Both the position numbers and the translations under genes were made by a program. From Bacilli bacterium (GTDB lineage: Bacteria > Bacillota_I > Bacilli_A > RF39 > UBA660): a DNA stretch of 46,480 bases. Below, one piece after another: positions 4,905 to 10,005 of this stretch (its first letter is position 1; each line of letters starts with the position of its first letter). The stretch lies in assembly GCA_022791775.1 (NCBI GenBank), contig JAAVZT010000001.1, forward strand, positions 1 through 46,480. Direction: 5' to 3'. A model generated the notes under the pieces. The model saw only the letters and a program-made list of their open reading frames with translations, did not search any database and was not told the DNA's origin.

Positions 4905-5027
4905 TTAACAGCAACGATTGCCATATACATTTGAGTATTCATCTTCTTCAGAATATGAATAACATGGTGTATAACTATGATGGTATACATGATGATTGAT
5001 CATTCTAGTATGACATGGAATCATATG
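4905..5027 (-). pseudogene. 3' half of a CotD-like spore coat gene, split by the 5026-9762 element
   Basis: The residues encoded here, beginning H-M-I-P-C-H-T-R-M-I-N-H-H and ending in two cysteines, resemble the second half of Bacillus CotD, which has V-P-H-x-x-P-x-H-T followed by N-H-x-H and ends in a Cys-Cys tail. The frame stays open upstream to an ATG at 5057 that overlaps the stop of the NERD gene (ATGA). Another ATG at 5024 follows AAAAAGGA. Either could start a short peptide, but neither makes a whole CotD. Joined at CA (plus-strand 5026-5027 to 9761-9762) with the ORF at 9754-9984, it gives a continuous in-frame protein of 114 residues. It may therefore be an exon-like fragment expressed only after excision of the element, or a dead remnant. 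Confidence 0.7.
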
Positions 5028-5040
5028 TGTGTGTCCTTTT
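5015..5040. other. Predicted attachment site, left junction
   Basis: The proposed crossover dinucleotide is TG at 5026-5027, inside the alternating tract TGTGTGTG at 5026-5033. The coat-gene half lies to the left and the element to the right. The repeated TG leaves some ambiguity. Only the first TG, or the pair six bases on, keeps the coat frame open, and the first gives the gap-free match to CotD. Confidence 0.5.
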
Positions 5041-5053
5041 TTGATAGATTTAT

Positions 5054-5788
5054 TCATTTCTTAATGTATTTACATTTAGGATAATTAGAACAACCAATAA
5101 ATTTGCCATATTTACCATTACGTTCTACTAATTTATTACCACATTTTGGACATATCATATTATTTTCTAATTCTCTATTATTATTAATCTTAATACGAAT
5201 ATCTTTCACATGCTGTTTTCTTAAAAACTTATCTTCAATATTATTAGATATAATTATATTTGCTAATTCTTTTATATCTTTATCAACAAGTAATTCTTCA
5301 TATTTTAAAATTTCACTTTTTAAATAGTCAACTTGTGTGACTATACTTCTACTTTTAACAGCAATCTTTGCTTGATTGGAAAAACATACAATGGGGATAA
5401 AACATTTATCATCTAGTTTAAGTAAATTTGATAGAGATTTTAGGTGCCCATAATTTTGATGAATAGGATTCACAAAATAACTTTTATTTTTTCCTAAATA
5501 TTGACACCATTTATTATCATATTCTTTTCCTTTAATCAAACCATAATAATTTTTCATTTCTATAACAAAAATACCAAATTTTGATAAAACTAAATGGTCA
5601 ATTTGATGAGTTCCTTTTTCATCTTTTATCATAATATCATTTAAAACCACATATTTATTTTTAGGTAATTTTTTTAATTCTAATTTTACCCAAAATTCAC
5701 CCATAAATCCTCTAAACTTTGGATAATATATTTTTAATATTATGCCTAATACTATTAAAATAATTCCTTCAACAAAACTTTTAATCAT
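5054..5788 (-). CDS. NERD-domain nuclease-like membrane protein with C-terminal zinc finger
   Basis: The protein (244 aa) opens with a membrane helix (residues 7-23), followed by a NERD domain with QIDH (Asp64), VIEMKN (Glu77-x-Lys79) and a downstream Gln in NPIHQNYGH. Together these resemble the PD-(D/E)xK nuclease core that NERD shares with restriction-like enzymes. The last 32 residues form a topoisomerase-type zinc finger with Cys213, Cys216, Cys233 and Cys239. NERD proteins are presumed to act on nucleic acid, but their role is unsettled. It is the cargo gene nearest the left end of the element, and its stop (TGA) overlaps the ATG of the coat-fragment ORF. Roles in defence or in DNA processing at excision are both guesses. 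Confidence 0.78.
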   Translation of the reverse strand: MIKSFVEGIILIVLGIILKIYYPKFRGFMGEFWVKLELKKLPKNKYVVLNDIMIKDEKGTHQIDHLVLSKFGIFVIEMKNYYGLIKGKEYDNKWCQYLGKNKSYFVNPIHQNYGHLKSLSNLLKLDDKCFIPIVCFSNQAKIAVKSRSIVTQVDYLKSEILKYEELLVDKDIKELANIIISNNIEDKFLRKQHVKDIRIKINNNRELENNMICPKCGNKLVERNGKYGKFIGCSNYPKCKYIKK

Positions 5789-5825
5789 ATGATGAAATCA
5801 CCACCATAATGATTATATCATGATT

Positions 5826-7394
5826 CTAAGCTAAATCCTTAAAAGTAGCCTTAATATTTATTGTTTTGTCTTCAAATATTTCAATTTTATCAATTAAATT
5901 AATTATTAATTCTCTACTTGGTTCTTTCATAGATAAAAATTTATTAGTATATTCATCAATCATTTTATTTTTATATTCCTTATTAATATTGTCATTAATA
6001 CTATTATTTAATTCTGTGTATTTTTTTTGTTTTATATTTAGTTCATTTTCTAGCCTAACCTTTACTCTTTCAAATTGTTTTTCAGTTATTTTTTTATTTA
6101 ACTTATCAATGTAAATAATATCTAAATTATTATTTATTTGTTTAATATCATTAATTATTCTTTCTAACTCTTTTTTATTATTTAATTTATTATCTTCAGT
6201 TAAATTATTTAATACATTATTTTTAACTTTATCTTTATTAATATAATTTAAGCACATATTAGTTAACGAATTTATTATAACTTTCTCTAATTCATCATAG
6301 TTATTAGAATGAGTAGTACATAATCTTTTTTTCATATAAGTTCTATAATAATTACAAATCGTATAACATCTATTATCTTTTTTACGTCTAGATTGTATCG
6401 ACATTCTATGTCCACAATCCCCACAATATAATAATCCATCTAATAAATGAATTTCTTTTTTTTCGTTTCTGCCTTTATTTTTAGGTATTCTTTTTTGAAC
6501 TTCATAAAATGTTTCTTTATCAATAATTTCTTCATGAGTATTTTCAACAATTATATAATCATTAGGATTATTCTTAATTATTTTTTTTACTTTATAGTTT
6601 ACTTTATTCCGTTTATTTTGTACCATATCACCTATATATATCCTATTTGTTAAAATATCTCTTATAGTTTTAGAATGCCACTCTCCAAATTTTAAATTAT
6701 AGTTACTTTTCCATTCAAAGTTATAGTATTGTGCTGGAGTTTTAACTCTTTCATTTGTTAACTGTTTGGCTATCTTAAAAAACGATAATCCATCTAAACA
6801 CATATCAAATATTCTTTTAACAACACTTGCTTGTTCAGTATTTATTACTAAATGATTTTTATTATCTTTATCTTGATCATATCCAAATGGAGTTCTACCT
6901 CCTACCCATTTTCCTTCTTTCATTTTTGCTTTTAGACTAGATTTTATTTTTTTTGAAATATCTTTAGCATACATATCATTCATTATAGCTTTAAATGGAG
7001 CTATATCATTATTAGTACTATCCAAAAAGGTATCTATGTTATCTGTTACTGCAATATACCTAACATTATGTTTTGGAAAATATCTTTCAATTAAATTTCC
7101 TGTACCAATATAATCTCTTCCAAGTCTTGACATATCTTTAGTAATAACCATATTTATTTTACCAGATTCAATATCATTTAATAATCTATTAAAATCAGGT
7201 CTGTCAAAATTAGTTCCAGAGTAACCATCATCTATATAAATATCATATACTCTTAAATTATTCTCTTTCACATATTGAAGTAATAAACTTTTTTGATTTG
7301 TAATACTTTCACTTTCTAAGGTTTTATCATCATCTTCCCTAGATAATCTTATATAAAGTCCAACATTATATATCTTATTTAAACTCTCTAACAA
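5826..7394 (-). CDS. Large serine recombinase
   Basis: This 522-residue enzyme is a large serine integrase/resolvase. The catalytic domain begins with GLYIRLSRED, with nucleophile Ser18, and continues through the YSGTNFDRPDF and KDMSRLGRDYI motifs. Next come a recombinase domain, a zinc ribbon (LLYCGDCGHRMS, then further cysteines near residues 348 and 360) and a long C-terminal coiled-coil region that normally controls the direction of recombination. The start is TTG at 7394, chosen because AAAGGAGG lies at ideal distance; it overlaps the stop of the upstream small ORF. Relatives such as SpoIVCA (skin), SprA (SP-beta) and TnpX excise or integrate elements. Its location inside a split coat gene makes it the likely enzyme that inserts and removes this segment. 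Confidence 0.95.
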   Translation of the reverse strand: MLESLNKIYNVGLYIRLSREDDDKTLESESITNQKSLLLQYVKENNLRVYDIYIDDGYSGTNFDRPDFNRLLNDIESGKINMVITKDMSRLGRDYIGTGNLIERYFPKHNVRYIAVTDNIDTFLDSTNNDIAPFKAIMNDMYAKDISKKIKSSLKAKMKEGKWVGGRTPFGYDQDKDNKNHLVINTEQASVVKRIFDMCLDGLSFFKIAKQLTNERVKTPAQYYNFEWKSNYNLKFGEWHSKTIRDILTNRIYIGDMVQNKRNKVNYKVKKIIKNNPNDYIIVENTHEEIIDKETFYEVQKRIPKNKGRNEKKEIHLLDGLLYCGDCGHRMSIQSRRKKDNRCYTICNYYRTYMKKRLCTTHSNNYDELEKVIINSLTNMCLNYINKDKVKNNVLNNLTEDNKLNNKKELERIINDIKQINNNLDIIYIDKLNKKITEKQFERVKVRLENELNIKQKKYTELNNSINDNINKEYKNKMIDEYTNKFLSMKEPSRELIINLIDKIEIFEDKTINIKATFKDLA

Positions 7395-7564
7395 TTCTTA
7401 CCTCCTTTAAGAGATAAATAAGCACATGATGATGGTACCTCACATTTTTTATTTTTACAAATCATTTGAATATATTTTTTAAGTTCCTTATTTAAAACTT
7501 TTATAAAAACATCATTTATATCATTATTTTCATTATAGATATAATTAATTTTGTACTTATCCAT
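7388..7564 (-). CDS. Small protein upstream of and coupled to the recombinase, 58 aa
   Basis: I start it at the ATG at 7564 (MDKYKINYIY), which follows GAGGTG at seven bases; a GTG five codons earlier lies within that binding site. The protein is acidic at its N-terminus, then basic, with three cysteines in the second half (MICKNKKCEV, SSCAYL) and a fourth at the C-terminus. Its stop overlaps the recombinase TTG start, and its last codons contain the recombinase ribosome binding site, so the two are translated together. Small ORFs in this position beside serine recombinases can encode direction factors or regulators. I do not recognise the family, so that role is only a possibility. Confidence 0.6.
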   Translation of the reverse strand: MDKYKINYIYNENNDINDVFIKVLNKELKKYIQMICKNKKCEVPSSCAYLSLKGGKNC

Positions 7565-7607
7565 TATTAAGCACCTCACTTAAATTTATGGATAAATAAC
7601 TGATTTT

Positions 7608-7658
7608 AGTAATACTAAATTGTATAATATTTAAATTACACACATATTTAGTATTACT
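7608..7658. repeat. 13-bp perfect inverted repeat in the recombinase leader
   Basis: AGTAATACTAAAT at 7608-7620 is repeated exactly in inverse at 7646-7658, with 25 bases between. In the minus-strand RNA the first arm overlaps the last codon and stop of the 11-codon leader peptide. No T-run follows, so it is not a simple terminator. It could be an RNA stem controlled by translation of the leader, or a protein-binding operator. Confidence 0.6.
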
Positions 7659-7689
7659 TATAAGCATTCGCTCTCTTTCTAATTATCAT
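7654..7689 (-). CDS. Predicted 11-aa leader peptide of the recombinase operon
   Basis: ATG at 7689 follows AAGAAGGAG at nine bases, the best ribosome binding site in this region, and encodes M-I-I-R-K-R-A-N-A-Y-K before TAA. It begins about 20 bases after the predicted transcription start. Its last lysine codon and stop lie inside the 5' arm of the 13-bp inverted repeat, the layout of attenuation systems in which a translating or stalled ribosome decides whether the stem forms. Translation has not been shown, and a chance ORF of this length is possible, but the strong binding site and position argue for it. Confidence 0.45.
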   Translation of the reverse strand: MIIRKRANAYK

Positions 7690-7714
7690 AAACATCATCT
7701 CCTTCTTGTGATGC

Positions 7715-7743
7715 ATGTTACCTCCATTAAAAAAATGAGTCAA
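7715..7743 (-). promoter_or_regulatory. Promoter of the recombinase operon
   Basis: On the minus strand TTGACT is followed after exactly 17 bases by TAACAT. It lies 26 bases upstream of the leader-peptide ATG and points at the small ORF and recombinase. Confidence 0.55.
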
Positions 7744-7768
7744 GCCATAAATTATAGAAAGTAATGCC

Positions 7769-7960
7769 CTTCATCCTAAAAATATTCATAATTTAATAGA
7801 TTATGAAACAGTAGGATAAGAAAGTTGTGTATCAACATATAATTTCCTTTTTAAAATAAAGAAAACTATATACATAATTCTTATTTTGCACTTACAAAAT
7901 TCATCCTAATTTGTAGGATGATATTTAGGATAATCCTAATAATAACAATATTTTTAAACA
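7769..7960. repeat. Cluster of hairpins bordered by TAGGAT/ATCCTA
   Basis: This noncoding stretch holds several inverted repeats that share one word. At 7771-7819 an outer ATCCTA/TAGGAT pair encloses an 8-bp stem (TTCATAAT/ATTATGAA). At 7901-7921 TCATCCTA and TAGGATGA form a stem with a five-base loop. At 7925-7939 TTAGGAT-A-ATCCTAA is a palindrome. A further ATCCTA/TAGGAT pair forms the terminator at 7961-8018. The recurring word suggests a protein-binding array, a structured RNA or a small repeat family. I see no ORF in it. Confidence 0.55.
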
Positions 7961-8018
7961 CAAAAAAATCATCCTATCATCTAATTTCAACTAGATTTTG
8001 TAGGATGATAATTTTTTT
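7961..8018 (-). terminator. Terminator after the Fic gene, probably bidirectional
   Basis: AATCATCCTA (7967-7976) pairs with TAGGATGATA (8001-8010), with an inner ATCTA/TAGAT stem. Seven A precede it and seven T follow it, so it could end transcripts from either side. It lies just beyond the Fic stop. Confidence 0.7.
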
Positions 8019-8769
8019 AATTATTTTCTTCTATTTCAAAATTTAATAATTCTTCACAAGTTTTTTCATATAAGTCTTGTTCATGTTTTATGGTATCAAT
8101 TAAAAACATTTTATCATTTTCATATTCTTTTAAACCTCTCATATAATAAGGTTTATCATTATCTAATACAATAAATGGCATAATATTATTTTTTAAGCAT
8201 TCTTTAAACATTATAATTCTACCAACTCTTCCATTACCATCACCAAAAGGATGAATTTTCTCAAATTTATAATGAAAATTAATAATATCTTCTAAAGTAA
8301 CATTAGTTTTAGAATTATATTCACTTAATAAATTTTCAATTTCTTTCTCTACATCTTCTGGTGCAGTTGTCTTAATAACATCAACAAGGCCTATCATATT
8401 CGGAACTATTTTAAATCCCCCAACATTATATCTAGGATTTTCCTCATCACTCGTATTTCTTTTTAACATCTTATTCATTTCGATAATCATTTCTTTAGAT
8501 AACTTATTATCAACATTATCTAACATATAATCAAATAATTTAAAATGATTCTTAGATTCAGTTAAATCATCTAATTTTATTAGAGTCTCACTTTTAGGAA
8601 TAAAAGATGAAGTATCAAATATTGCTTCAGTTTGTTCACTAGTTAATCTGCTACCCTCAATTTTATTTGAATTATATGAAAAATTAACTTGAGAATAATG
8701 ATAGATATTACCTTTAAACTTTGATTCTTTTTGTTTGATTAATTCCTTTTTAATTTTACTTATATCCAT
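8017..8769 (-). CDS. Fic-domain AMP-transferase-like protein
   Basis: Fic proteins transfer AMP or another nucleotide group onto target proteins. The complete active-site motif HPFGDGNGRVGR is at residues 173-184 of this 250-residue protein, with catalytic His173. Near the N-terminus S-N-K-I-E-G (residues 34-39) fits the self-inhibitory motif (S/T)xxxE(G/N), so this is a class II Fic that holds itself inactive until regulated. I start at the ATG at 8769 (MDISKIKKEL): GGGGGA lies at good distance, and the start directly follows the stop of the ASCH gene, with which it forms an operon. The longer in-frame start 13 codons upstream lies inside that gene. The target is unknown. It is cargo of the element. 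Confidence 0.9.
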   Translation of the reverse strand: MDISKIKKELIKQKESKFKGNIYHYSQVNFSYNSNKIEGSRLTSEQTEAIFDTSSFIPKSETLIKLDDLTESKNHFKLFDYMLDNVDNKLSKEMIIEMNKMLKRNTSDEENPRYNVGGFKIVPNMIGLVDVIKTTAPEDVEKEIENLLSEYNSKTNVTLEDIINFHYKFEKIHPFGDGNGRVGRIIMFKECLKNNIMPFIVLDNDKPYYMRGLKEYENDKMFLIDTIKHEQDLYEKTCEELLNFEIEENN

Positions 8770-8770
8770 A

Positions 8771-9649
8771 TTACATATCCCCCAATGAAATATTATTACC
8801 ATTTTCACAATGCTTATAGAACTCTAAAACATTTAGACGAAATTTTGGTTTTTTATAATTATTATTTAACTCATATTTAATAAATTTATCTCTTACATTA
8901 ATTAATAAATCTTGTAAGGAGTTATATTCATGTATGCCTTTAAATCTTTCCCACGAATGTTCAAACCAATAATACTTATTATCTTTTTCAAAAGTTAAAA
9001 ATGTATGTGTTGGACATTTAGCTTTATCGTAATGAACTATAAAATAAGTTTTAATGTTCCAATCATTACCTTTAAAATAATGTCTTTCAAGTTCTACTTG
9101 ATCCCAGCATACACCAACTTTGTTTTTTATTATTTCATTAGGACTTTGTAAAATATAATTGTCTGAATAATTTTCATCAACTATTTTATGTTTACTCCCC
9201 TGTTTATCCATCCAACCATATTCTATATTTTCCATTAAATTCATAATTTCAAATTCATTATAATAATCCCAAATATTAAGTTGACCTTTTGCTTTTATAA
9301 ATTTTATAGGCTTAATATTATCTAGTATCCAAGCATATCTTCCTTCTTTATATTCACCACAAATATATTCTTGACAGTTATTCTTTTTCATTTCTTCTAC
9401 ATACTCTTTTGTCATATAAATACAATCTACCAAATTGCATTTGCAAATAATATTTCCAAAGTTCATATTTTTATTTTCAACTAAACTCATTAATTCTTTA
9501 TCACCTAAGTCATTTTTAGATGGTTTAGTCATACTTGCATGAATATATAATTCTCCCCTATAATTTGTTTTCCAACTTCTAGTTTCAATTAACTTCTTTT
9601 TTTCATATATCAAAGTTGCAAAAGGCTCTGTCAGACTTAATACCTTCAT
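8771..9649 (-). CDS. ASCH domain fused to a transglutaminase/papain-like Cys-His domain
   Basis: Residues 1-125 of 292 resemble an ASCH domain (MKVLSLTEPFATLIYEKKK, then ETRSW and GELYIHAS), an RNA-binding beta-barrel related to PUA. Residues 145-285 carry a different domain with Cys181 in GVCWDQVEL, His215 in PTHTFLTF and an acidic residue in WFEHSW (Glu230). This order of Cys, His and Glu/Asp is typical of transglutaminase-like cysteine enzymes. The start is the ATG at 9649, placed eight bases after AGGTG; a GTG three codons earlier overlaps that site. It lies at the right end of the element, directly upstream of the Fic gene. A joint role in modifying proteins or RNA-associated targets is inference. 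Confidence 0.72.
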   Translation of the reverse strand: MKVLSLTEPFATLIYEKKKLIETRSWKTNYRGELYIHASMTKPSKNDLGDKELMSLVENKNMNFGNIICKCNLVDCIYMTKEYVEEMKKNNCQEYICGEYKEGRYAWILDNIKPIKFIKAKGQLNIWDYYNEFEIMNLMENIEYGWMDKQGSKHKIVDENYSDNYILQSPNEIIKNKVGVCWDQVELERHYFKGNDWNIKTYFIVHYDKAKCPTHTFLTFEKDNKYYWFEHSWERFKGIHEYNSLQDLLINVRDKFIKYELNNNYKKPKFRLNVLEFYKHCENGNNISLGDM

Positions 9650-9666
9650 AGGAATCACCTATAAAT

Positions 9667-9672
9667 ATTATA
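9667..9672 (-). promoter_or_regulatory. -10 element of the ASCH-Fic operon
   Basis: TATAAT on the minus strand is preceded by TG one base upstream (extended -10, TGGTATAAT), 17 bases before the ASCH ATG. No good -35 is visible, which an extended -10 can compensate for. Confidence 0.5.
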
Positions 9673-9747
9673 CCACACAAAAAGACACTTCTTATCAAAT
9701 GCCTCCAAATTTGTACTTATTTTCTCTTAACTTATTTGGTCTATCAT

Positions 9748-9776
9748 AAATTATCACACCTGAGGAACTTCATAGT
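9748..9776. other. Predicted attachment site, right junction
   Basis: The proposed crossover dinucleotide is TG at 9761-9762, inside the codons for Pro-Gln near the end of the CotD-like 5' half. The element side reads ATCACACC. The coat reading frame meets a TGA only two codons inside the element. Confidence 0.5.
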
Positions 9777-9984
9777 TGATAGTACGATGGCATACTCTTT
9801 CTTGTGGGCATTCATATACTGGTGGACACATCATTGGAGCACAAGATGGCATTTGACAACATGAAGGCATTCCTCCCATATAATTATCATAACTCATATT
9901 CATGGCAAAACCTGGCATTTCCATATTGGCTTGAGCGCTCATATTTTGTGTTGCTTCTTGACAACAACGATCATTTTCAAACAT
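9754..9984 (-). CDS. CotD-like spore coat protein, 5' half of a split gene
   Basis: The 76-residue product is rich in Met, Cys and Pro and ends CPPVYECPQERVCHRTINY then EVPQV. This matches the first part of CotD-family coat proteins, which reach a V-P-H motif and then continue with a His-rich half. Here the frame stops two codons after E-V-P, exactly where the element begins. The missing half is at 4905-5027. I start at the ATG at 9984, eight bases after AAGGA; an in-frame ATG three codons earlier is too close. A SigK-like promoter lies upstream. As it stands it would make a truncated coat protein. After excision of the element it would encode 114 residues. Confidence 0.78.
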   Translation of the reverse strand: MFENDRCCQEATQNMSAQANMEMPGFAMNMSYDNYMGGMPSCCQMPSCAPMMCPPVYECPQERVCHRTINYEVPQV

Positions 9985-10005
9985 AACAAACATTCCTTTC
10001 TATTG

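Follow-up and report, generated by a model that had tools for sequence, protein, structure and literature searches.

On the reverse strand of the 46,480-nucleotide stretch analysed here (the window; contig JAAVZT010000001.1, from a Bacilli bacterium of the UBA660 lineage), an element encoding a large serine recombinase splits a CotD-like spore-coat gene (Table 1). The attB sequence GTTCCT-CA-TATGATTCC is uninterrupted in same-genus relatives and, together with the two element junctions in the window (CCTCA/GGTGTG and GGACACA/CATATG, with the slash at the junction), identifies a CA core. The coat gene is unsplit in five same-genus genomes; the Pfam CotD profile scored 22.2 bits (cut-off 22) in one more distant relative (L188), with two same-genus proteins falling below the cut-off. 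With a serine recombinase, a split sporulation gene and the same gene whole in relatives, the element is skin-like, as the earlier note had presumed of its recombinase. The genome of the window (1.1 Mb in 36 contigs) encodes Spo0A and several sporulation-type sigma factors.

To place the locus in context, we assembled approximately 100 homologous loci, comprising 80 from genomes, 10 from viral contigs and further relatives, which fall into two clades, A (that of the window) and B, with recombinases about 55% identical between them. Of the 59 group-A loci whose recombinase is 65% or more identical and whose sequence extends far enough, 55 have the 3' coat fragment downstream of that gene. The TTG start of the recombinase, which overlaps the ORF3 stop, is kept in nearly all group-A relatives. 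Loci of group B (L099, L101, L102, L151-L195) carry the same control region, mostly without a CotD-like fragment in the available sequence. In L188, HP1, HP2, ORF3 and the beginning of a truncated recombinase adjoin an intact CotD-like gene (1080-1440 and 1527-1787), as if an element had decayed beside a restored coat gene. Cargo varies among elements (NERD nuclease, Fic, ASCH and others; in the window at 5054-5788, downstream of the recombinase, and upstream at 8017-9658) and is possibly of a defence type, and homology between elements breaks sharply just past the recombinase.

Skin in B. subtilis and C. difficile, SPbeta and gin are gene-intervening elements (PMC5025042, PMC5595907, PMC4191935), with gin in B. 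cereus being a non-phage one (PMC5595907). The element described here is like them in that a serine-recombinase element splits a sporulation gene, but its target is a CotD-like coat gene, its length is only 4.7 kb and it carries no phage genes. The C. difficile skin recombinase is constitutive and restrained by a directionality factor that depends on sigma-E, and in B. subtilis the timing of spoIVCA is set by sigma-E together with SpoIIID (PMC5025042).

The region in front of the recombinase contains the promoter, Shine-Dalgarno (SD) sequence, 11-codon ORF and perfect 13-bp repeat described in the earlier note, all of them present between 7743 and 7608 on the minus strand. It also contains features absent from that description, namely a second hairpin (HP2) over the ORF3 start, a reading frame (ORF2) that runs through the first hairpin (HP1) and joins the two hairpins, and an inner stem in HP1.

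Table 1. Coordinates of the features of the element and its control region in the window.
Feature	Position	Strand	Description
Element	5028-9762	-	~4.7 kb; CA core insertion; ASCH, Fic, control region, ORF3, recombinase, NERD
CotD-like spore-coat gene, 5' part	9761-9993	-	79-aa Cys-rich ORF at 9993
CotD-like spore-coat gene, 3' part	4905-5027	-	His/Cys-rich frame
Promoter, sigma-A-like	7715-7743	-	TTGACT (7743-7738)-17-TAACAT (7720-7715)
Leader ORF	7654-7689	-	11 codons, MIIRKRANAYK*; SD AAGAAGGAG just upstream
ORF2	7557-7667	-	36 codons, MLISNTKYVCNLNIIQFSITKISYLSINLSEVLNNG*; ends on ORF3 start (AUGGAUAA)
HP1, outer stem	7608-7658	-	7658-7646/7620-7608; 13 bp, perfect; 25 nt between arms
HP1, inner stem	7642-7635/7628-7621	-	8 bp; loop 7634-7629
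HP2	7554-7598	-	stem 7598-7588/7564-7554; z -4.6
ORF3	7388-7564	-	58 aa from ATG (63 aa from GTG 7579); stop overlaps recombinase start
Large serine recombinase	5826-7394	-	522 aa; TTG start; SD AAAGGAGG; Resolvase, Recombinase and Zn_ribbon_recom domains

Promoter-type sequences are frequent in this AT-rich DNA, with 56 matches in 5.3 kb against 50 expected, and the promoter of the window is unremarkable when taken alone. It is credible because a promoter of the form TTGAC(T/A)-17/18-TA(T/G/A)CAT recurs at the same position in about 35 distinct homologous loci from both clades. Transcription would start at approximately 7709-7706, shortly before the leader. At 7772-7976, in the interval separating the promoter from the Fic gene, lie several copies of TAGGATGA / TCATCCTA that form hairpins, a stretch also conserved in clade B (L099).

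The leader ORF (codons ATG ATA ATT AGA AAG AGA GCG AAT GCT TAT AAG TAA, 7689-7654) has additional in-frame ATGs upstream and, as previously noted, ends within the first arm of the repeat, its UAA occupying 7656-7654. This arrangement is recurrent. Of 36 distinct loci that bear the promoter (three of which were read by eye, the script having misplaced the arm), 35 have their leader stop no more than 2 nt from the base of HP1, and 30 of these end at the same UAA. Among these loci the start context is conserved and leader length ranges from 8 to 24 codons, falling into at least seven length classes that are all in one frame, an outcome expected rarely were indels frame-blind. The peptides themselves (e.g. 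MIIRKRANAYK, MKFKRIIYKEVNAYK, MNKEDYEIK and MLGVRAYK) diverge, and no shared residues, residue run or arrest motif were found across approximately 36 distinct leaders. Two loci (L029 and L078) keep HP1 with no leader, the leader start is weakened or its frame shortened in L040 and L038, both promoter and leader are lost in some loci, and a few relatives retain the recombinase without a leader.

The 13-bp repeat proved to be the outer part of a 21-bp hairpin, HP1, with an asymmetric bulge. Its predicted folding energy is -19.2 kcal/mol, against -7.6 ± 2.2 kcal/mol for shuffled sequences (z -5.2), and the whole 169-nt leader region folds with a z of -5.1. No known RNA family was matched at the locus. 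HP1 is not an intrinsic terminator, since no U-run follows the hairpin. A sporulation-type promoter inside HP1 was also considered and rejected, the sigma-E -10-like sequences not being retained in the second clade.

The arms of HP1 and their 38-nt register are nearly invariant in clade A, where 98% of outer-stem cells are paired, both partners have changed at least once in eleven of 32 pairs (4.9 ± 1.6 pairs in shuffled alignments) and covariation reaches 0.132, compared with 0.083 ± 0.006 on shuffling and at most 0.058 on sliding. Clade B has different arms (GTAATATT.../...AATATTAC) and a GGTATG/CATACC inner stem, with an arm spacing 3 or 6 nt shorter; pairing holds in 95% of its cells and covariation reaches 0.147 (0.119 ± 0.007 on shuffling), while pairs changed on both sides (4) do not exceed the shuffled value (3.1). 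The alignments are sequence-based, and these pair counts are lowered by a few outliers (L074, L079, L009) whose inner stems MAFFT misplaces. Imperfect pairs comprise 120 GU and only 20 AC cells, an excess that points to constraint on the structure as sense RNA. In the homologous loci, which the earlier note had proposed to compare for peptide and stem, the stem shows compensatory changes and the start context and stop of the leader are kept, but the leader amino acids are not.

These data also bear on the possibility that the repeat functions as DNA, either as a site at which the recombinase acts (attachment or accessory) or as the operator of a dimeric regulator. Such a role would agree with the nearly invariant arms and fixed spacing of group A, with the frequent break of homology between loci near the repeat and with the presence of an Arc-like gene just upstream in several loci. 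The actual element junctions, however, lie at approximately 9761 and 5027 and have other arms (TCTATCA/TGATAGA), so that the 13-bp repeat is internal to the element; on this and the RNA evidence we rejected an attachment site. The asymmetric bulge and the 6 to 1 ratio of GU to AC pairs also speak against a DNA site, and the 3 and 6 nt shifts in arm spacing between clades suit a frame-bearing RNA rather than a fixed DNA site. A DNA site would furthermore leave the covering of a start codon by HP2 unexplained, and we regard it as very unlikely.

A covariance model of HP1 and HP2 (R1) found matches in 67 of 338 genomes of the family and none outside it, a search of 296 genomes drawn from the class returning same-family genomes only. 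The same type of recombinase is present in 47 of 52 further stretches, and three of the remainder are cut by contig ends; the other two are L188, a remnant, and L189, a chance match inside a dxs-like gene that was discarded. Conversely, some recombinase relatives lack HP1 (L061, L089, L096).

ORF2 begins 9 nt ahead of HP1 and passes through the whole hairpin. Its length ranges from 32 to 40 codons, and an ATG or GTG start is present in 43 of 52 distinct loci, the other nine having neither; the frame is open for at least 28 aa in 46 of the 52, with early stops in L050, L046 and L174. Substitutions in ORF2 are not enriched at third codon positions, nor does the frame avoid stops to a significant degree. 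We consequently rejected ORF2 as a conserved protein, the substitution pattern lending no support to a role for the peptide itself. The frame ends on the start of ORF3, which encodes a conserved small protein that regularly precedes the recombinase and has no Pfam or NCBIfam match; it is a candidate directionality factor or inhibitor.

HP2 folds directly over this start. Its 3' arm holds the ORF3 AUG (7564-7562), and its apical part holds the ORF3 SD, GAGGTG (7577-7572). The ORF3 start is predicted to be paired with a probability of at least 0.9 in 98% of loci with HP1 and 71% of loci without it, compared with 13% of controls (204 starts in the same DNA). In most loci, stop and start codons overlap at the leader/ORF2, ORF2/ORF3 and ORF3/recombinase boundaries.

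In erm-type translational attenuators, a short leader ORF precedes a set of hairpins that includes one over the start codon of the next gene, and the region described here is alike in both respects. It differs in having neither conserved leader residues nor an indicated inducer, and in that its hairpins overlap two further frames. The earlier note had put forward translation-controlled attenuation. In attenuation proper, a ribosome stalled on the leader by amino-acid lack or an antibiotic would alter HP1 and switch the recombinase on or off. This reading is in keeping with a leader that has a good SD and overlaps the first arm of a stable hairpin, and with the K/R-X-K/R triplet of several leaders (RKR, KFK, KIK, KTK), a type of motif that arrests ribosomes carrying a macrolide. 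The triplet is nevertheless missing from many leaders, which are free to differ in sequence and length. A ribosome stalled on the leader would, moreover, open HP1 and not HP2, the hairpin that covers the start codon, and neither a terminator nor an alternative, mutually exclusive HP1/HP2 pairing was seen in the fold or the alignment. Stalled-ribosome attenuation would call for shared leader residues and for some means of opening HP2; neither was seen, and we consider it quite unlikely. The pattern fits translational coupling better. The part of the original suggestion that finds support is that this looks like a translation-dependent control region, with a conserved stem and a conserved leader start and stop. 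The proposed response to amino-acid supply or an antibiotic is not supported, given the variable leaders, the want of a shared residue run or arrest motif and the absence of an intrinsic terminator at HP1.

The origin of the leader is suggested by loci in which it is longer. The leader of L152 and L158 is a 54-codon Arc-like ORF with a start site of the same kind and an identical stop, located approximately 270-430 nt upstream of the recombinase. Its PHROG matches to Arc-like proteins are weak, and it has no Pfam match and no sequence match in the PDB. In L155, L164, L177 and L010, the middle of this ORF is deleted in frame, and further loci have related genes or pseudogenes directly upstream of HP1. 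Genes for Arc/CopG-type regulators are known in front of integrases, and the full-length leaders of L152 and L158 are like them, weakly by profile, whereas the gene in the window has only 11 codons and could not fold as a repressor. The full-length forms, the in-frame deletions and the fixed stop indicate that the leader is probably a shortened Arc-like regulator gene retained for its two ends, the start and the stop, and that the leader peptide itself is probably without function.

This origin invites the reading that HP2 alone matters, silencing ORF3, with leader and HP1 being either left-overs from a vanished regulator operon or of use to mRNA stability. The wider conservation of HP2, present over the start in most loci devoid of HP1, and the loss of leader and promoter in some loci are compatible with it. 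Left-overs, however, should retain neither covarying HP1 pairs nor a promoter, SD, start and fixed in-frame stop through several in-frame length changes, and we consider this explanation unlikely.

We propose instead, with a probability of roughly two in three, that the leader, ORF2, ORF3 and recombinase form a cascade of translational coupling that holds down the recombinase in this skin-like element. Comparison among loci establishes its predicted components: HP1, HP2, a buried ORF3 start codon, a leader stop at a fixed point, an ORF2 frame that stays open, and stop codons that overlap the starts following them. In the proposed scheme, the mRNA would begin just upstream of the leader and, with the ORF3 start codon hidden in HP2, an mRNA free of ribosomes would support little translation of ORF3 or of the coupled recombinase. 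A ribosome translating the leader would halt at the base of HP1, 9-11 nt beyond the ORF2 start, with the stem melted, and this melting would allow (re)initiation on ORF2. The ORF2 ribosome would then traverse HP1, open HP2 and terminate on the ORF3 start, and translation of ORF3 would in turn end where the recombinase begins, at a weak TTG codon. The recombinase would thus depend on translation begun at its own leader, and would probably be made only when ribosomes traverse the whole chain. We infer translation of the leader and ORF2, re-initiation between frames and a low level of recombinase as the purpose of the arrangement from the sequences compared. The exceptions in L029, L078, L038, L040, L050, L046 and L174 indicate that not every locus needs the chain.

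Translational coupling through RNA unfolding or re-initiation has been described for the VII/IX genes of phage f1 and the coat/lysis genes of MS2 (PMC12548453). The predicted arrangement is alike in that a structure-silenced downstream start would be opened by a ribosome on an overlapping upstream frame, but here three short frames and two serial hairpins precede a large serine recombinase. The earlier note had known of no such control for this kind of recombinase, and none was found for large serine recombinases in the searched literature: no paper treats them jointly with translational coupling and, integrons aside, nothing relevant links leader peptides to recombinases, although that literature covers few subscription papers and its silence is weak evidence of novelty. 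The available parts of the reports on skin, SPbeta and gin mention neither a leader ORF nor a hairpin (PMC5025042, PMC5595907, PMC4191935).

More tentatively, and with considerable doubt, it may be that throughout the family a lost DNA-binding regulator has been reduced through in-frame deletions to a stub that serves only to bring a ribosome to HP1, and that excision of a developmental element is gated by a ribosome relay through two RNA locks and so coupled to the state of translation in the cell, as in the sporulating mother cell. The deletion series that links an Arc-like gene with a stub of 11 codons would show a route by which leader peptides originate. The excision of skin-like elements is known to be timed by directionality factors and sigma factors; if the gate is real, it would add a layer of control over the recombinase. 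Such a gate would also explain how a sigma-A-type promoter is tolerated in front of a DNA-cutting enzyme, and would provide a self-contained RNA part that holds a recombinase at a very low level.
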